This document shows, in pieces, positions 24,067 through 38,948 of a stretch of DNA of 38,948 bases (the stretch's first letter is position 1; every line of letters starts with the position of its first letter). The stretch spans positions 1 through 38,948 of IMG/VR virus record IMGVR_UViG_3300042476_000763; one strand, written 5' to 3'. The translations under genes were made by a program, and so were the position numbers. The stretch comes from a virus. The notes beneath the pieces are model-generated. The model had not been told where the DNA came from. It did not search any database and saw only the letters and a list, made by a program, of their open reading frames with translations.

Positions 24067-24726
24067 ATGACAACCACTAAATTAGCAATACCAATTCAAG
24101 ACCTTTATGCAGCAATTAATTCTAAAATTGTATTAAATGCTCAAAATGTTTTATCAAATGCTCCTCAATTAATCAATGACAAATATGATTATGATTTAAC
24201 TGAAAGTATTATGAGAACAATTAATGAAGCTATTAAGCACATAGAATCAGCTAGAAAAAATGTTACTATGCCATTAGATGCTTATAAAAAATCATTAATT
24301 GAAATTGAAAAAGAATCAACTCAATTATTTAATGACTTTATTAATTCACGCAAAAAAATGCTTTTAGAATATAATGAGCAATTAATTAAAAAGCAGGAAG
24401 AGGCAAATAGGAAAATCAAAGAAGAAGCAAACAATATGCTAAAGCAAAGCGGAGCTGAAGCATTAGCTGATATTATGGGTCATTTTACAGATAAATTAGT
24501 TAATGCTAATATTGAATTAGAAAAGCCTAAAAATATTAGAACAATTATTAAAGCTAAGATTAATGGAGAAGTTGATTGGATTAAAGTTATTGGAGTATTA
24601 TTTAATGCTAAAATATTGCAACCAGAAGATTTATTAAAACAATTACCAAAAGCTATGGATGAATGTGGTGTAAAGTCAATTGATGGAATTGAATTATATG
24701 AACATAAAACTCAAGTAATACGATGA
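24067..24726 (+). CDS. Coiled-coil protein of the replication/recombination block
   Basis: 219 residues. Residues about 45-120 are a long charged helix (IKHIESARKNV, IEIEKESTQLFNDFINSRKK, QLIKKQEEANRKIKEEA), followed by a small C-terminal alpha/beta domain (IRTIIKAKINGEVDWIKVIG). The layout recalls DUF1351-type phage proteins that accompany recombination genes, but I cannot confirm it. Ends ATGA-coupled to the next gene. Confidence 0.6.
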   Translation: MTTTKLAIPIQDLYAAINSKIVLNAQNVLSNAPQLINDKYDYDLTESIMRTINEAIKHIESARKNVTMPLDAYKKSLIEIEKESTQLFNDFINSRKKMLLEYNEQLIKKQEEANRKIKEEANNMLKQSGAEALADIMGHFTDKLVNANIELEKPKNIRTIIKAKINGEVDWIKVIGVLFNAKILQPEDLLKQLPKAMDECGVKSIDGIELYEHKTQVIR

Positions 24727-24992
24727 ACATTTTAATTGAAGCAAATAAAATTGTTAATGATAGGTCTGAAGAAAAGCAAAGGCAATATGGACCATTTGCC
24801 GAAGGAATGGAAAAAGCAGCTAAAATAGCTTCTATTATGTCAAATAAAGATTTTACAACAACTGATATTTATAATTGCTTAATTGCTTTAAAATTATCTC
24901 GCGAATCTTATAATCATAAAGAAGATAATTTATTAGATGCTGTAGCTTATATTGCTTCATTAAATGACTATAAAAATTCTTTAACATTATGA
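24723..24992 (+). CDS. DUF6378-like small protein
   Basis: 89 residues: ANKIVNDRSEEKQRQYGPFAEG, then a KIASIMSN helix, and LIALKLSRESYNHKEDNLLDAVAYIASL. This matches the pattern of DUF6378, small all-helical phage proteins with an xxxxRxxxYG N-motif and KLAR...DxxVDxAGYAAL C-motif, reminiscent of all-alpha NTP pyrophosphatases. ATGA overlaps on both sides place it in a translationally coupled chain leading into the modification cluster. Confidence 0.7.
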   Translation: MNILIEANKIVNDRSEEKQRQYGPFAEGMEKAAKIASIMSNKDFTTTDIYNCLIALKLSRESYNHKEDNLLDAVAYIASLNDYKNSLTL

Positions 24993-25882
24993 AAACAGCA
25001 ATAATTGGAATAATAAATAATCCAGCTACTTCAGAGAACTCTCATTCAGCTGGTATGAATTATATAGTGTCAAAGTTATTTGATGCACCTATATTAAATG
25101 AGAATGAAGATTGGAATGATTATGATAGATTAATCATATATCATGGAGTTAATTTTAAGGAAGGTTCATTTAATATAATTGGAGGTTTTTCAAATGATAT
25201 TTTTATTAGAATAAAAAAGTTAATTGATTATAAAGGTGAGATATTAACTTTAGATGGATTTCAATTAATTGATTTAATTAAAGCTAGAAAATTATACAAT
25301 TATACTTATGATAAAGTATTTAATTCAATTAAATTACCAAATAAAGATAAATTAGTAATTGGTGATTCTCATTCAATATCTGTTTGGCCAAATGAAGAAT
25401 ATACAATATCTAGAAATGATGGCAAAACATTACATGGGTTTTTAAAATTAAATTTAGATTTATCTAATTATAAAGAGATAATATTTTATTTCGGAAATAT
25501 TGATATTAGATTTCATTTAGCTAGGCAATCAAATCCAATAGAAGCAACTAAAGATTTATTTAATCATTATTGTGAATACGCTTCTAAATATAATTGCTCA
25601 TTAACTCAATTGCTTCCAATTGAAGATGAATCTAGAAAAATACCAAGCACTGGATTATATAAAGGTAAACCATTTTATGGTGGTATTGAATTAAGAAAAG
25701 AATTAAGAAATATAGCTAATGATATAATGAAAAATTCTAATTTAAAATTTATTGAATGGCCTGATTATTTTGTAGATATTAATGGCAATTTAAAATTTGA
25801 TATTATGGAACCTAAGCAATCAGTCCATATTCGACCTAAATATTATCAGAGAAACATAAAAAAACAACTTTCACTTTTTTAA
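24989..25882 (+). CDS. SGNH-hydrolase-like protein of the modification cluster
   Basis: 297 residues. An N-terminal 120-residue segment starts MKTAIIGIINNPATSENSHS. Residues 125-129 are GDSHS, with S127 as candidate nucleophile; 169-176 are GNIDIRFH, resembling the SGNH block III GxND; and SVHIRPKYY at 278-286 offers the catalytic His (H280). The layout suggests an SGNH/GDSL fold, either an esterase or an acyltransferase. Because it begins the chain with inositol-phosphate synthase and base-modifying genes, a role in trimming or esterifying a modified base is inferred. The spacing of the Asp/Glu-His pair is not classical, so catalysis is uncertain. Confidence 0.6.
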   Translation: MKTAIIGIINNPATSENSHSAGMNYIVSKLFDAPILNENEDWNDYDRLIIYHGVNFKEGSFNIIGGFSNDIFIRIKKLIDYKGEILTLDGFQLIDLIKARKLYNYTYDKVFNSIKLPNKDKLVIGDSHSISVWPNEEYTISRNDGKTLHGFLKLNLDLSNYKEIIFYFGNIDIRFHLARQSNPIEATKDLFNHYCEYASKYNCSLTQLLPIEDESRKIPSTGLYKGKPFYGGIELRKELRNIANDIMKNSNLKFIEWPDYFVDINGNLKFDIMEPKQSVHIRPKYYQRNIKKQLSLF

Positions 25883-25892
25883 ACAATCAAAC

Positions 25893-27074
25893 ATGAAAAA
25901 AATTAAAGTAGCAATCGTTGGTGCTGGTAATTGCGCCAAATCATTAGTAGAAGGAGTCCAATATTATACTCAAAATAATAATGAATTATTTGGGTTAATG
26001 AAGAAAGATATTGGAGGTTATTTGCCTGAACATATTGAATTTGTATGTGCATTTGATATTGATAAAAGAAAAATTGGTAAATCATTAGGTGAAGCATTAA
26101 AAGAGAAACCTAATAATGCATACAATATTGTTGATAAAATTAATTGTGAAGCTTTGGTATATGAAGCTCCAATAATTGATAGTTACGCATCATTAATGGA
26201 GAATTATCCAGTTGATAATAGGTTTTTAGTTGACCAAAAATTAAGAATAAAAACAGATTTAAATTATTATAGTTCAACTTGTGATATAGATAGCATAATA
26301 GAATTTTATAAGAAAAAATTATCTAATATTTTATTAGAAAATAAAGTAGATGTATTAATTAATTATTTGCCAGTTGGTTCTCAATTAGCTACCGAATTTT
26401 GGGCTAATATAGCTATTGAAAATAAAATATCATTTGTTAATTGCATTCCAGTATTTATAGCTTCAAATAAAGAATGGGAAAAGAAATTTTATGATAATAA
26501 AACTACTATTATTGGCGATGATATGCGTTCGCAATTTGGAGCTTCAATATTATCTCAAATGCTTCAAGAATTAGCATTTGAAAGAGGGCATAAAGTTAAA
26601 GCACATATACAACGCAATGTAGGTGGCAATACTGATTTTTTAAATATGGAAGATAAATCAAGATTGTCTTCAAAAAAAATATCAAAAGAAAATGTAATTA
26701 AATCTCAAAATGAAATTAGAAATATATCTATTGATGGCTCATTCTTACATGCTGGGCCTAGTGAATATATAGCTTATTATGGTGATAATAAAGTAGCTAA
26801 TTTTAGATTAGAATTAGAAGGTTTTGGAGGAGCACCTGTAATTTTAGACGCCCAATTATCAGTGCAAGATTCTCCAAATTCAGCTGGAGTAGTGATTGAC
26901 GCTATTAGGTACATTAAAGTAGCAAATGAATTAGGGATATATGGAGCACTAAAAGGCCCATCAGCTTTCACACAAAAAACACCACCTAAGCAAATGATGT
27001 TTGTTGATGCATTAAAAGAATGCGAAGCTTTAGCTAATAGACAATACACTGATTCAACTTTAAGAATAAATTAA
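25893..27074 (+). CDS. Inositol-3-phosphate synthase
   Basis: 393 residues, the size of compact actinobacterial/archaeal-type enzymes that convert glucose-6-phosphate to 1L-myo-inositol 3-phosphate using NAD+. Motifs: GAGNCAKSLVEG at 10-21 (NAD-binding loop), NYLPVGSQ at 157-164, GDDMRSQFGAS at 208-218, NVGGNTDFLNM at 242-252, a lysine-rich catalytic stretch at 254-270, and DSPNSAG at 326-332. These are diagnostic. It is a metabolic enzyme unusual for a phage and is followed at once by a HAD phosphatase that could release free inositol. Cytoplasmic. An A-rich leader precedes it, 10 bases after the SGNH-like gene. Confidence 0.93.
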   Translation: MKKIKVAIVGAGNCAKSLVEGVQYYTQNNNELFGLMKKDIGGYLPEHIEFVCAFDIDKRKIGKSLGEALKEKPNNAYNIVDKINCEALVYEAPIIDSYASLMENYPVDNRFLVDQKLRIKTDLNYYSSTCDIDSIIEFYKKKLSNILLENKVDVLINYLPVGSQLATEFWANIAIENKISFVNCIPVFIASNKEWEKKFYDNKTTIIGDDMRSQFGASILSQMLQELAFERGHKVKAHIQRNVGGNTDFLNMEDKSRLSSKKISKENVIKSQNEIRNISIDGSFLHAGPSEYIAYYGDNKVANFRLELEGFGGAPVILDAQLSVQDSPNSAGVVIDAIRYIKVANELGIYGALKGPSAFTQKTPPKQMMFVDALKECEALANRQYTDSTLRIN

Positions 27075-27076
27075 TT

Positions 27077-27445
27077 ATGGAAATATATGCCTATGATTTT
27101 GATGGTGTAGTATCTATCGGAATTAATCCTAGAAATGACAATGATATTATAATAACTGGTCGTTGTATTGATGAAAAAGAATATGTATTAAATGAACTTA
27201 ATAAAAGAAATATTAATTGCAAAGTTTATTTTAATCCAATGACTTTAAATGAAAGAGGCAATCATACTATTGATTCAAGAATTAAATCAGGAATGCATAA
27301 AGTTAGTACTATAATTGATTTAATTAAGAATGGAATTAAGATAACTAGATTCTTTGAAGATGACCCAATTCAATATGAGTTATTAAAAGAAATTGATTTC
27401 GCAATAGAATTAGTTTTTATTCAACATTATTTAGTAGAAAAATAA
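27077..27445 (+). CDS. HAD-family phosphatase
   Basis: 122 residues with all four HAD motifs: DFDG at 7-10 (nucleophile D7, general acid D9), ITGR at 26-29, a SGMHK lysine at 75, and FEDDP at 93-97. No cap domain, so it resembles small phosphatases acting on sugar phosphates or nucleotides. It begins two bases after inositol-3-phosphate synthase; dephosphorylating inositol phosphate to myo-inositol is the obvious hypothesis, though a 5'-nucleotidase-like or polynucleotide phosphatase role is also possible. Confidence 0.83.
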   Translation: MEIYAYDFDGVVSIGINPRNDNDIIITGRCIDEKEYVLNELNKRNINCKVYFNPMTLNERGNHTIDSRIKSGMHKVSTIIDLIKNGIKITRFFEDDPIQYELLKEIDFAIELVFIQHYLVEK

Positions 27446-27446
27446 A

Positions 27447-28349
27447 ATGGAAAAACAAATTAAAATTAAAAATGGTGTTCATTATATTTATAGCACTCAA
27501 TTAAAAACATTTAATGATAATGATATTGAATTAAATTCATATAAGCATGTTGATTTTAAAGATAAAACAGTGCTAGATATTGGAGCTTGTATTGGTTCAT
27601 TTTCAAGATTAGCATTTGAAGGCAATTGTAGTAAGTATATTGCTTTTGAACCAGATGAAGATAATTTTAATATGCTAAAATTAAATAACAAAAATTTAAA
27701 TTCTGAAATATTCTTAGGGGCAATATCTAATTGTGATGATGAGTATATTAAATTTTATAAAGCAGAAAGTGATAATAAGACTATTGGCTACACTGAAAGC
27801 AACTCAACTATAGATAATATTAAATCAAATAGAATAGAGCAATTAGTTAAAAATTATAACTTTAAAAAAGTATTAGATAAATATAAACCACAAATAATTA
27901 AATGCGATATAGAAGGAGGTGAGTTTGATTTGTTTTGCGATTATCTACCTAATTATGTCACTGAAGTAATTATTGAGTTCCATGTATTAAATAAAAAAGA
28001 AAACTTATATAAGTTATGGTTTGAGATATTTAATAAAACTTTTTTAGGGCAAAAATGGCAAATAGTTAAACAACCAAAATATGTTTGTAGGAATTGGACT
28101 ACATTTAATGGATTAAATGTATTTACAATTGGGTTTAAAAGAGAAAGCAATTGGTTAGAATTAGATAAAAAAGCCAAATACAAAACGCTTGATAAAATAA
28201 TTAATAGAAAATATAGTGGAATTAATGGACATGAATTAGATTCTATAATAAATAAATATTGTGAAAATCAAAATAGATTAAGCAATAAAAATAAAAGCTT
28301 TATAGAGTATTCATTATTAGAATATAAATCAATAAAACAATTATTATGA
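27447..28349 (+). CDS. FkbM-family SAM-dependent methyltransferase
   Basis: 300 residues. SAM-binding motif I is VLDIGACIGSF at 42-52, motif II FEPD at 67-70, and KCDIEGGEF at 152-160 is the FkbM-typical motif, followed by EVIIEFHV. FkbM enzymes O-methylate sugars and polyketides. Here it sits between the inositol genes and the base-modification protein, so O-methylation of the attached moiety is inferred. The last 80 residues (ELDKKAKYKTLDKIINRKY) form a separate helical tail. ATGA-coupled to the next gene. Confidence 0.83.
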   Translation: MEKQIKIKNGVHYIYSTQLKTFNDNDIELNSYKHVDFKDKTVLDIGACIGSFSRLAFEGNCSKYIAFEPDEDNFNMLKLNNKNLNSEIFLGAISNCDDEYIKFYKAESDNKTIGYTESNSTIDNIKSNRIEQLVKNYNFKKVLDKYKPQIIKCDIEGGEFDLFCDYLPNYVTEVIIEFHVLNKKENLYKLWFEIFNKTFLGQKWQIVKQPKYVCRNWTTFNGLNVFTIGFKRESNWLELDKKAKYKTLDKIINRKYSGINGHELDSIINKYCENQNRLSNKNKSFIEYSLLEYKSIKQLL

Positions 28350-29380
28350 AGGATTTAATTAATATGAATGTTATTGATGATGTTGGATATTTCTTTAATA
28401 AAGTAAATGAAAGAGCTTTATATAAATTAGGATTTGTAGAAAATTATAGTGATGAAAATCAACCGGCTTTAGGAATAAATGTTGAATATTTCCATCCACA
28501 AATTACATTAGATGATAGGATGAGATACATAATGGAAAATATTGTTGTATCTAATCTTTCTATTGATAATATTATTTGTAATACTATTATATCACATTTT
28601 TATGGAGCAAGAGGTATTCATCAAATATTAACTAGAGATAATAATCCAAAAACAGCATTAGTTGATTTTGAAAGATTAAATAATGATATTGAATATGAAA
28701 ATGAAATTAGAATTAATTTAAATGATGCAGTATCATTAGGTTTGCCAATATATGGTAGCACTGAATTGAGAACTAGTTTATTTGGAGCATCAAATAATTA
28801 TGTTAGCAAATTAAAAAATCAAACTAGAAATACTGATAAAATAAATATATTGCTATGGGTTAGTTCATTTATCAAAAATGGTATTACTAAAAAAATGGCG
28901 AATGCTAATTCATTAAAAGAAATGTTTGATGTTTTAAATAATATTGAAGGTGTAGGTGGTTATTATGGTTATCATTGTTCTACTAGCAATAGTGTAAATC
29001 CTAAAATTAATATTAATCATGATGAGCGGTTTTGCGTTCCAGGACCAGGAGCTAGAAAAACTTTAGATATGATGTTCAAAGAAGATTGCAAAATACCTTA
29101 TGGTGATAGAGTGATTTGGTTTAGAGAGAATTATAAACAATTAATTGGTGAAATATACTTACATGACAGCACACATAATGTAATTGTCAATGGTAATAAA
29201 ATATTGCAAGATGAGCAAGATGAATTAAAGACTTATGGATGTGAAGTTGGTTTATGCCAATATGGTGTTTATGTAAGATTAAAAAATAATCCTCATTTAA
29301 TTAATAAAAGAAAAGTTGCTAGAGTTGAAGACAAAACAATGCAACTATTTTTTAATAGAATTAAAACTACACTTTTTTAA
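28346..29380 (+). CDS. aGPT-Pplase / hmdU-DNA-kinase-helical-domain-like protein
   Basis: 344 residues, all-helical, related by pattern to the glycosylase-like clade named alpha-glutamyl/putrescinyl thymine pyrophosphorylase. Key stretches: an N-terminal helical region with RMRYIMENIVVSNLSIDN, GVGGYYGYH at 202-210 (a GxGxFxxYQ-type loop), PGPGARKTL at 232-240 (the pGPGA.rg motif), and a C-terminal VEDKTMQLFFNRIK helix. In known phages these proteins act on hydroxymethyluracil in DNA, replacing its pyrophosphate or phosphate by a nucleophile. It is the strongest sign that this cluster alters bases in the phage DNA. Assignment is by motif reading. Confidence 0.68.
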   Translation: MKDLINMNVIDDVGYFFNKVNERALYKLGFVENYSDENQPALGINVEYFHPQITLDDRMRYIMENIVVSNLSIDNIICNTIISHFYGARGIHQILTRDNNPKTALVDFERLNNDIEYENEIRINLNDAVSLGLPIYGSTELRTSLFGASNNYVSKLKNQTRNTDKINILLWVSSFIKNGITKKMANANSLKEMFDVLNNIEGVGGYYGYHCSTSNSVNPKININHDERFCVPGPGARKTLDMMFKEDCKIPYGDRVIWFRENYKQLIGEIYLHDSTHNVIVNGNKILQDEQDELKTYGCEVGLCQYGVYVRLKNNPHLINKRKVARVEDKTMQLFFNRIKTTLF

Positions 29381-29403
29381 ATAAACTAAAATAAATACAA
29401 ACT

Positions 29404-29703
29404 ATGGAATTAAAATTTGAATTTGAATCAATTCGCAAATGGGCTAAAGAAAGAGGCATTTATGAAAAAGGAGATGCTAAAACTCAGTATTTAAAATTAT
29501 GCGAAGAAATGGGCGAATTAGCTCAATCATTATTAAAAAATAATGAAGAAGAATTTGTTGATGCAATTGGTGATTGCGTTGTAGTTCTTACTAATTTAGC
29601 TGCTTTAAAAGGTTATAATATTGAAGATTGCATTAATAGTGCTTATGATGTTATAGCTAAAAGAAAAGGCAAAATGGTTAATGGAACTTTTGTAAAAGAA
29701 TAA
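29404..29703 (+). CDS. MazG-like nucleotide pyrophosphohydrolase
   Basis: 99 residues with the all-alpha NTP pyrophosphatase signature: CEEMGELA (E34, E35, E38) and EEFVDAIGD with E50, D53 and D57, binding Mg2+. The enzyme hydrolyses a nucleoside triphosphate to its monophosphate plus PPi. In modification gene clusters, such enzymes often remove the canonical dNTP or supply the monophosphate to a thymidylate-synthase-like hydroxymethylase, which fits the gene two places downstream. Confidence 0.87.
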   Translation: MELKFEFESIRKWAKERGIYEKGDAKTQYLKLCEEMGELAQSLLKNNEEEFVDAIGDCVVVLTNLAALKGYNIEDCINSAYDVIAKRKGKMVNGTFVKE

Positions 29704-29705
29704 TT

Positions 29706-29948
29706 ATGAGATATACAGTTAGAGGGAAGAAAGGTCCTTATGATGGTCCTTTCACTAAATCTATCATCACTTATTTCTTAGAAGATGATAATGGAAAAAC
29801 AATATTTTGGCATGAAGGACCAAATAAAAAATTAAATGCTGAAATTGGGGATGTAATAACTGGTTTAGTTGTAAGAGATGATGATGTAGTTGATTATAAC
29901 AAATCAAATATCGAAATAATTTTAAAACAATTAAAATTAAATTTATGA
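29706..29948 (+). CDS. Hypothetical protein in the modification cluster
   Basis: 80 residues, not recognised. Beta-rich with a Gly/Pro-containing start (MRYTVRGKKGPYDGPF), then YFLEDDNGKTIFWHEGP and a valine-rich strand, which could form an OB- or SH3-like barrel. It lies between MazG and the thymidylate-synthase-like gene and is ATGA-coupled to the latter, so a role in the same pathway is plausible. Confidence 0.6.
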   Translation: MRYTVRGKKGPYDGPFTKSIITYFLEDDNGKTIFWHEGPNKKLNAEIGDVITGLVVRDDDVVDYNKSNIEIILKQLKLNL

Positions 29949-30640
29949 TAGAGTCTCATCACATTAAATTTACTAATGCAAATCAAGCTTTTGTTAATTT
30001 GTATAATTATGTAAATAACTATGGTCAATTAATTAATAATACTAAGACAATTTATAATATTGGTTTTTATATTACAAATCCATTAGATAATTTAATTAAT
30101 TGCAAAAGTAGGAATTGGTCTAAAAATTATGGTGATATAGAATGGCAATGGTATTTATCAAAAAATACTAATGCAATTGAATTATCTAAAATAGCAAAAA
30201 TTTGGGAGAATCATTTAGATAGCAATGGTAATGTAAATTCAAATTATGGTTATCAATGGTCTCAATCAAATCAATTAGATTTAATTATAAAAGAATTGAT
30301 TAGAGACAAAAGTACTAGAAGAGCTTATATTACAATTTATGATGGTAAGCAAATTGAAAACTCATTAGCAACTAATTGTGGATATTCTCTTGACACGCCT
30401 TGTACTTTAAATATTGGATTCAATATAATTAATGATGAAGTAAATATGAGTGTAATGATGAGGTCTAATGATTTATGGTATGGGTTTTGCAATGACCAAT
30501 ATTGCTTTTCTAATTTATTGAATTTAGTTATTGATAAATTAAATAGCAAAGGATTTAATTACAAATGCGGAGTTTATTATCATTTCGTAAATAATCTTCA
30601 TATTTATTCTAATAAGTTTAACAAACAAATAAATTTTTAA
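29945..30640 (+). CDS. Thymidylate-synthase-family enzyme, probable dNMP hydroxymethylase
   Basis: 231 residues, shorter than bacterial thymidylate synthase (about 264) and close to phage hydroxymethylases. Motifs: SRNWSKNYGDIEWQWYLS at 55-72, NSNYGYQW at 98-105, paired arginines R125-R126 for phosphate binding, TPCT at 151-154 with catalytic C153, RSNDLWYG at 173-180, and NNLHIYSN at 217-224. At the base-specificity site the sequence is GFCNDQYCF: ungapped alignment puts D184 where dUMP-specific enzymes have Asn, as in T4 dCMP hydroxymethylase, but a one-residue gap would place N183 there. It would supply a hydroxymethyl-pyrimidine nucleotide for incorporation in DNA. Confidence 0.82.
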   Translation: MIESHHIKFTNANQAFVNLYNYVNNYGQLINNTKTIYNIGFYITNPLDNLINCKSRNWSKNYGDIEWQWYLSKNTNAIELSKIAKIWENHLDSNGNVNSNYGYQWSQSNQLDLIIKELIRDKSTRRAYITIYDGKQIENSLATNCGYSLDTPCTLNIGFNIINDEVNMSVMMRSNDLWYGFCNDQYCFSNLLNLVIDKLNSKGFNYKCGVYYHFVNNLHIYSNKFNKQINF

Positions 30641-37613: not shown

Positions 37614-38890
37614 TGCAATTTAAATTAACTAGTACACAAACTAAGGCTTATGATTTAGTTATTAATAATAAGAAAAGAGTTATAGTATTTGGTGGAGCTA
37701 TTAGAGGTGGTAAAACTTATTGGTTGCTTGTAACATTATCTTCATTATGTTTAATTTATCCTAGGTCACGGTATGCAATTATACGTAAGTCTTTACCTGA
37801 TTTAAAGCGCACAACATTCCCATCATTTTCTTCAATATTAAATGATGGGTTAATTAATTATATTAAATCATGGAATAGAGATACAAATGTAGTTACATTT
37901 ATTAATGGTAGTGAATTAATATTTATGTCTGAATCTTATGATGATGATAAAGATTTAAATAGATTTCGTGGATTAGAAATAAATGGAGCTGGATTAGATG
38001 AAATAAATGAATTGCAAGAAGTTACATTTTATAAAGTTCAAGAAAGAATTGGAAGTTGGAATAAAGCAATTGGTAGCCCACCAATAGTTTGTTTAGCTAC
38101 ATGCAATCCAGCTCAAAATTGGGTTAAAGAATTAATTTATAATAGATATAGAGAAAATACATTGCCAAATAAATGGGCATATATTAATTCAAGAATAACT
38201 GATAATCCATATTTGCATCCAGAATATTTAGAATCTTTAAAAGAATTACCACCAATACAATATCAAAGATTTGTTGAGGGAGATTGGGATATAAGTGACG
38301 AAGTTGTTAATCCATTTTTATATGCATGGAATGATGATAAACATATTGATGATTCTATTATTTTAAATAATAATATTCCTGTTTATATTTCAGTTGATTT
38401 TAATGTCAATCCATTATGTGCATTAATAATTCAGAATATTGGTAGAGACACTAATATAGTTGATGAGATTAAAATAAATAAAGGAAGTGTTGATGCTTTT
38501 TGTGATTATGTTGAGGGATATGGAATACCAAATGGATTGATTAGAATAACTGGAGATGCTATGGGTAAAGGTTCATCAATACAACAAAGGGATAATTCAT
38601 CAGCATACACGCAAATAAAACGTCGATTAAAATTATCTGATAGTCAAATAATAATACCAGGCAATCCAACTCATTTTAATTCTAGAATTGATTGCAATAA
38701 TGCTTTAAATAAATTAAAGATTAAAGTTAATTCTAAGAAATGCAAAGGCTTTGTATTTGATGCTAAACAAGTACAATGTGATAGTGATGGAAAAATAATT
38801 AAATCAAATAGAAATAATTTGGCCCAAAGAGCTGACTTATTGGATTGTTTTAGATATTATGTCAATTCAATTATTAAAAGATATTTATAA
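37613..38890 (+). CDS. terL: Terminase large subunit (complete copy)
   Basis: 425 residues from ATG 37613, coupled to terS; the TTG three bases earlier is not preferred. ATPase: Walker A GGAIRGGKT at 27-35, Walker B with GLDEINE, and coupling motif ATCNPAQNW. Nuclease: VYISVDFNVNP, IRITGDAMGKGS and ADLLDCFRYY provide the three acidic residues. The motor pumps DNA through the portal and cuts it. The 3' 579 bases are repeated at the window start, where the same gene is truncated. Confidence 0.95.
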   Translation: MQFKLTSTQTKAYDLVINNKKRVIVFGGAIRGGKTYWLLVTLSSLCLIYPRSRYAIIRKSLPDLKRTTFPSFSSILNDGLINYIKSWNRDTNVVTFINGSELIFMSESYDDDKDLNRFRGLEINGAGLDEINELQEVTFYKVQERIGSWNKAIGSPPIVCLATCNPAQNWVKELIYNRYRENTLPNKWAYINSRITDNPYLHPEYLESLKELPPIQYQRFVEGDWDISDEVVNPFLYAWNDDKHIDDSIILNNNIPVYISVDFNVNPLCALIIQNIGRDTNIVDEIKINKGSVDAFCDYVEGYGIPNGLIRITGDAMGKGSSIQQRDNSSAYTQIKRRLKLSDSQIIIPGNPTHFNSRIDCNNALNKLKIKVNSKKCKGFVFDAKQVQCDSDGKIIKSNRNNLAQRADLLDCFRYYVNSIIKRYL

Positions 38891-38948
38891 TTTTGTTGAA
38901 TATAAATAACATGAATTATGTGTCAATGCAATAAATGTTTTAATTCAG
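38312..38948. repeat. Terminal redundancy, right copy
   Basis: Same 637 bases as 1-637 with C at 38407 and 38824 instead of T. It includes the end of terL, the TAATTTTG box (38888-38895) and the start of the next gene. Confidence 0.95.
38918..38948 (+). CDS. 5' end of the Cys-rich protein gene (cut by window edge)
   Basis: The first ten codons of the gene fully present at 607-963, repeated because of the terminal redundancy. Not a separate gene. Confidence 0.9.
   Translation, partial: MCQCNKCFNS

Follow-up and report, generated by a model that had tools for sequence, protein, structure and literature searches.

Several routes to modified pyrimidines are known in phage DNA. In the T4-type 5-hydroxymethylcytosine (hmC) pathway, a dCMP hydroxymethylase is combined with glucosyltransferases. 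In the 5-hydroxymethyldeoxyuridine (5-hmdU) hypermodification of phages such as ViI, M6, SP10, phiW-14, and PaMx11, a 5-hmdU kinase acts together with an aGPT-Pplase or ADDT protein, and the nucleophile is an amino acid or a polyamine. The 5-hmC carbamoyltransferase system (MetaGPA, PMC8670742) has a dCMP-type enzyme of the thymidylate synthase (TS) family and a group-adding enzyme. Here we describe a gene cluster at positions 24989-30640 of the virus record IMGVR_UViG_3300042476_000763, the 38,948-bp stretch of DNA referred to below as the window. We consider it probable that this cluster encodes a cytosine-hypermodification pathway, in which hmC is made, inositol is supplied by an inositol-3-phosphate synthase (MIPS) and a HAD phosphatase, and the two are joined by an SGNH-fold protein and an HMUDK_hel protein, with an FkbM methyltransferase as an optional component. 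The presence of inositol on the DNA is a strong inference, while the type of linkage, the role of the SGNH protein, and the methylation are more tentative.

The eight open reading frames (ORFs) of the cluster are all on the + strand, with junctions of -4 to +23 bp and ATGA overlaps at 24989, 28346, and 29945 (Table 1). An earlier note on this DNA had described the same chain, with its partial ATGA overlaps, as a DNA hypermodification cluster that makes inositol, methylates it, and attaches it to a hydroxymethyl-pyrimidine. The chain was recovered unchanged and is confirmed by ORF positions, Pfam matches, HAD motifs, and a model of the SGNH protein. The assignment to DNA hypermodification is supported as well, and the interpretation as a whole is partly supported.

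For the base concerned, the nearest solved relative of the TS-like product of the gene at 29945 is the T4 dCMP hydroxymethylase (1b49; E 1.6e-16 in a PDB sequence search). The catalytic Cys is kept, and the enzyme has Asp at E. coli position 177 and Thr rather than His at position 147. According to PMC8670742, residues 147 and 177 distinguish dUMP enzymes from the TS-family enzymes of cytosine-modified contigs. The alignment included two kinds of Asn177 control, namely canonical thymidylate synthases and the enzyme of MAM1, an Ackermannviridae phage. Near the recovered cassettes, the motif could be read in 65 TS-family genes, of which 59 have Asp177; in the MIPS class, those with Asn177 encode long enzymes of the ThyA type. 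Because of the Asp177/Thr147 signature and the match to the T4 enzyme, hmC is a well-supported prediction for the base in the DNA of this phage, which narrows the hydroxymethyl-pyrimidine of the earlier note to cytosine. A thymine pathway through 5-hmdU was also considered and is ruled out by TS residues 147 and 177. Alternatively, the TS-like sequence may encode a dCMP methylase that adds CH3 instead of CH2OH. In the proposed pathway, the TS-like enzyme would convert dCMP to 5-hydroxymethyl-dCMP, MazG would clear unwanted nucleotides, and hmC would enter the phage DNA. A DNA polymerase was not recognized in the complete genome of this phage, and hydroxymethyl-dCTP would therefore be left to the host polymerase and host kinases.

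The cluster does not appear to be a chance arrangement, because the same gene order occurs in dozens of viral contigs. Alignments of SGNH, HMUDK_hel, MIPS, and HAD were used to scan for viral loci, which were then made non-redundant. With the window's own proteins as queries and the best 80 matches per scan kept, 118 SGNH-bearing loci were obtained, of which 61 have MIPS and HMUDK_hel (57 with HAD), 49 have a different protein, here called X (45 with a PALP-type pyridoxal phosphate (PLP) enzyme), and none has both. The order SGNH-MIPS-HAD-(FkbM)-HMUDK_hel, whose recurrence the earlier note had proposed to check, is found in 49 of the 70 MIPS loci. The closest relative found, L104, matches this phage gene for gene from 23327 to the DnaB gene (70-89% identity), with X and the PLP enzyme in place of MIPS-HAD-FkbM-HMUDK_hel between matching flanks. 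The same two alternatives were observed in bacterial-genome contigs, which were scanned with SGNH only: four loci have MIPS-HAD-HMUDK_hel-SGNH (three of these with a TS gene), and X and MIPS are together in none of 14 loci. In addition, SGNH is fused to X in L174 and L154, and to HMUDK_hel in Aeromonas phage 31. The two alternative modules and these fusions suggest that SGNH is a shared core, and that transferase and donor genes change together.

The MIPS-free version (L104:7894-9821 and about 45 further loci) comprises SGNH, the unannotated X of 300-347 aa, the PALP-type PLP enzyme, MazG, and a dCMP-type TS, and it is probably a module for amino-acid-type cytosine modification. A profile-profile comparison between HMUDK_hel and X gave no significant link, with one short match at a PGxGA-like motif, so X is not claimed to have the HMUDK_hel fold. 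Taken together, the module swap, the conserved order in many contigs, and the invariant active sites described below point to a selected functional unit. They also argue against the view that an auxiliary-metabolism inositol pathway happens to lie beside a T4-like hmC gene. That view draws on the fact that this phage is known from its genome sequence alone, and we regard it as extremely unlikely.

The best PDB match of the phage MIPS is Mycobacterium tuberculosis Ino1 (1gr0, E 9e-77). The two share lysines and Asn/Asp that do not vary among the sequences of the phage set. The synthase domain was recognized by its Pfam profile; the N-terminal part has no Pfam match to NAD_binding_5 (PF07994), though it aligns to 1gr0. 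The MIPS homolog may instead make a different cyclitol phosphate, such that hmC would be modified with another cyclitol. This alternative fits the second-best PDB match, a five-membered-cyclitol-phosphate synthase (6k96), and the score of the NCBIfam mycothiol INO1 model, which is far under the cut-off (297 vs 638 bits). However, 1gr0 is by far the better match (E 9e-77 vs 4e-41) and the residues named above are invariant, making another cyclitol rather unlikely.

The HAD protein at 27077 has no match in Pfam profiles or in a PDB sequence search, but motifs I-IV (DxDGV, ITGR, K, EDD) do not vary within its family. Among 50,697 phage records, relatives of MIPS occur in 18, from two lineages (Menderavirus and Cr30), and the set of records with the HAD family is identical. 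Owing to the conserved active sites and this strict pairing, MIPS and HAD are the predicted source of inositol, in agreement with the earlier note. MIPS would convert glucose-6-phosphate to inositol-3-phosphate, HAD would then release free inositol, and this inositol may be the nucleophile for DNA modification. A linkage through phosphate (hmC-phosphate-inositol), with HAD acting on DNA instead of free inositol phosphate, seems quite improbable. It would agree with the annotation of several Stenotrophomonas phage homologs as polynucleotide kinase, and large substrates are common for capless HADs. However, HAD tracks MIPS and not the transferase, as it is found in named phages only with MIPS and in lineages where HMUDK_hel was not found.

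The gene contexts in these phages vary. In Stenotrophomonas phage Mendera, MIPS and HAD are located between the FolE and QueC/QueE genes (L001:11098-16624), which suggests inositol on 7-deazaguanine or an unrelated use. In Caulobacter phage Cr30, they adjoin ADDT and a glycosyltransferase-like protein. The pair is thus present in three lineages with different base chemistries, including that of the phage described here, and always beside DNA-modification genes. A 404-aa protein beside QueC in Mendera was suspected to be a TGT/DpdA homolog; its sole match is an unknown PHROG, and this is not claimed.

For the HMUDK_hel protein at 28346, the predicted structure (pLDDT 88) has its best PDB fold match in the PaMx11 gp46 glycinyltransferase (8z2n), which adds glycine to 5-phosphomethyl-dU. 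The match (Z 11.4, 3.7 A, 226 residues) is to be read with the caveat that Z of about 11 can reflect only a common arrangement in helical proteins and that the Foldseek E value is weak (0.085). We trust it because it is consistent with the PF18723 sequence match and with viral models in BFVD, namely the SP10 5-hmdU DNA kinase (E 2e-6), Pplase1, and ADDT; the Aeromonas phage 31 fusion was also matched (E 5e-12). The next PDB folds are the queuosine-salvage DUF2419 and base-excision DNA glycosylases of the helix-hairpin-helix (HhH) type. A PDB sequence search with the HMUDK_hel profile gave nothing useful. Sequence match and helical fold place the protein in the aGPT-Pplase/HMUDK_hel/ADDT superfamily, and the relationship that the earlier note had named as decisive is upheld. 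The kinase part of that description is not, since 28346 lacks a Walker A motif, and a kinase activity of the protein was rejected for want of a P-loop. In the whole genome, Walker A motifs were found only in a DnaB-like helicase, the terminase, and one 978-aa ORF, so a phage kinase of the 5-hmdU type is not evident. Judging from the model, HMUDK_hel may be a DNA-base transferase that acts on hmC and joins inositol to it.

The SGNH protein at 24989 consists of an N-terminal alpha/beta part and an SGNH domain at about residues 114-297. A PDB sequence search with its profile gave nothing useful, and the nearest solved folds to its model are acetylxylan esterase and sialate O-acetylesterase (VIA Z 12-13). 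The SGNH fold is supported by conservation of Ser127 (GDS), Asn170 (block III), and His280 (block V). The best reading of SGNH and HMUDK_hel is that together they form an hmC-DNA transferase. HMUDK_hel, which resembles the PaMx11 glycinyltransferase, would bind hmC in DNA and, with SGNH, link inositol to the hydroxymethyl carbon. SGNH may activate or transfer at the hmC hydroxyl, for example through a transient acyl group, and would replace the 5-hmdU kinase of thymine pathways, although this activation without a kinase is speculative. Alternatively, the two proteins may attach only a small group (acyl or amino acid) to hmC, and the methylated inositol from MIPS, HAD, and FkbM may be used elsewhere, as an osmolyte or in a host surface sugar. 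SGNH folds are typical of acetyl-transfer and esterase enzymes, and MIPS was not found in the Aeromonas phages with the SGNH-HMUDK_hel fusion. Against this, MIPS and HAD are in most loci flanked by SGNH and HMUDK_hel, are swapped as a unit with HMUDK_hel against X and the PLP enzyme, and stand beside DNA-modification genes in unrelated phages. We therefore consider this alternative unlikely.

Of the 62 loci with MIPS and HMUDK_hel, 42 also carry the FkbM gene. In other loci, glycosyltransferase-like genes, one of the TET-associated type, are found at or near its position. A profile search of the PDB matched only the S-adenosylmethionine (AdoMet)-binding part of arginine methyltransferases, with no hint of a substrate. 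The founding member of the FkbM family transfers a methyl group to a cyclohexane hydroxyl of FK506, and action on a cyclitol is plausible for this reason. FkbM would methylate an inositol hydroxyl as an optional step, which is speculative. The enzyme family given in the earlier note is confirmed by profile (PF05050, TIGR01444), and its methylation step is best regarded as optional. A full version of the pathway would have cytosine carrying inositol, often O-methylated, in ether linkage via the 5-hydroxymethyl carbon. It would be kinase-free, with SGNH as the activating enzyme beside a glycosylase-fold transferase, and the SGNH core would serve two nucleophile modules (inositol or a PLP-derived amino acid). 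We put forward this full version only tentatively. In either version, the bulky modified base would shield DNA from nucleases.

Several observations weigh against an inositol-hmC pathway. The cluster is known only from sequence and predicted structures, and its co-occurrence counts are inflated, because the loci were found with the window's own proteins and only the best 80 matches per scan were kept. The Asp that SGNH hydrolases usually have three residues before the catalytic His (DxxH) is missing: Q, G, K, or R occupies position 277, and Glu274 is the conserved residue instead. HMUDK_hel by itself could be merely a DNA-binding domain. Its relatives in Aeromonas phage 31 and Serratia phage MAM1 occur where MIPS was not found, and the family is thus not inositol-specific. 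Conversely, HMUDK_hel and SGNH were not found in Mendera or Cr30, where the inositol user would have to be another enzyme. Because each occurs without the other being detected, neither MIPS nor HMUDK_hel strictly needs the other across phages.

Table 1. Genes of the cluster and its upstream neighbor in the window
Feature	Coordinates	Strand	Evidence
DUF6378 protein, 89 aa; usual neighbor upstream of SGNH	24723..24992	+	PF19905 E 9e-12
SGNH-fold protein, 297 aa	24989..25882	+	no Pfam match; AlphaFold model pLDDT 93
Inositol-3-phosphate synthase (MIPS), 393 aa	25893..27074	+	Inos-1-P_synth PF01658 E 2.7e-23
Capless HAD phosphatase, 122 aa, putative inositol-phosphate phosphatase	27077..27445	+	HAD motifs; no Pfam match
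AdoMet methyltransferase of the FkbM family, 300 aa; putative decorating enzyme, optional	27447..28349	+	PF05050 E 8e-11; TIGR01444 above cut-off
HMUDK_hel protein, 344 aa, predicted DNA base transferase resembling HhH glycosylases; lacks a kinase domain	28346..29380	+	PF18723 E 8e-15
MazG-type nucleotide pyrophosphohydrolase, 99 aa	29404..29703	+	PF03819 E 3e-5; phrog_1992 E 2e-34
80-aa protein without assigned family	29706..29948	+	70% identity to counterpart in sister phage L104
Predicted dCMP 5-hydroxymethylase, thymidylate-synthase family, 231 aa	29945..30640	+	Thymidylat_synt PF00303 E 9e-19; 1b49

The record is read as a complete phage genome because of a 637-bp direct terminal repeat, whose copies (1-637 and 38312-38948) are 99.7% identical and differ at 2 positions. 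The DUF6378 gene is counted as part of the block since it recurs with SGNH in most loci; its cluster is present in 93 loci of the neighborhood set. DUF6378 proteins match PHROGs labeled phosphofructokinase, a label that is implausible for an 89-aa protein accompanying hmC modules. Some cassettes (L221:6999-7874 and L211) have a cysteine-synthase-like gene between SGNH and MIPS. In several loci, a DNA-methyltransferase-like gene directly follows HMUDK_hel (L232:11790-12980; phrog_116 E 5e-17).

Each of the parts is known, but their combination and a DNA base decorated with inositol or any cyclitol were not found in the searchable literature, with Iyer et al. 2013, the likeliest source of a prior prediction, outside that search. 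If true, the inositol-hmC pathway would represent a new chemical class of DNA modification, with a cassette carried by many phage contigs from the environment. Phage DNA chemistry would then have a plug-in character, with one hmC core and donors that can be exchanged, and hmC could possibly be modified by a kinase-free route.

Compared with known systems, M. tuberculosis Ino1 feeds inositol lipids and mycothiol, whereas the phage MIPS sits in a DNA-modification cluster. ORF233c of Aeromonas phages 31 and 44RR has SGNH and HMUDK_hel domains in one protein (807 aa in the T4-like phage 31, L003:6696-9119), and the phage 31 genome also has a dCMP-type TS; unlike in the phage described here, MIPS and HAD were not found there. 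Such well-studied phages may carry an unrecognized hmC modification. The 5-hmC carbamoyltransferase system differs in both its transfer enzyme and the group added. The 5-hmdU systems use a transferase of the same helical superfamily and also have MazG, whereas in this phage the predicted target is hmC, a kinase was not found, SGNH would take the place of the kinase, and the proposed nucleophile is inositol. In the T4-type pathway, the hydroxymethylase family and its signature are the same, and modification is likewise expected at the hydroxymethyl carbon. Alpha- and beta-glucosyltransferases were not recognized in this phage, which has MIPS, HAD, SGNH, and HMUDK_hel instead. Inositol-hmC and the glucosyl-hmC of T4 could be confused by mass alone, since they have the identical elemental formula (about 419.15 Da).

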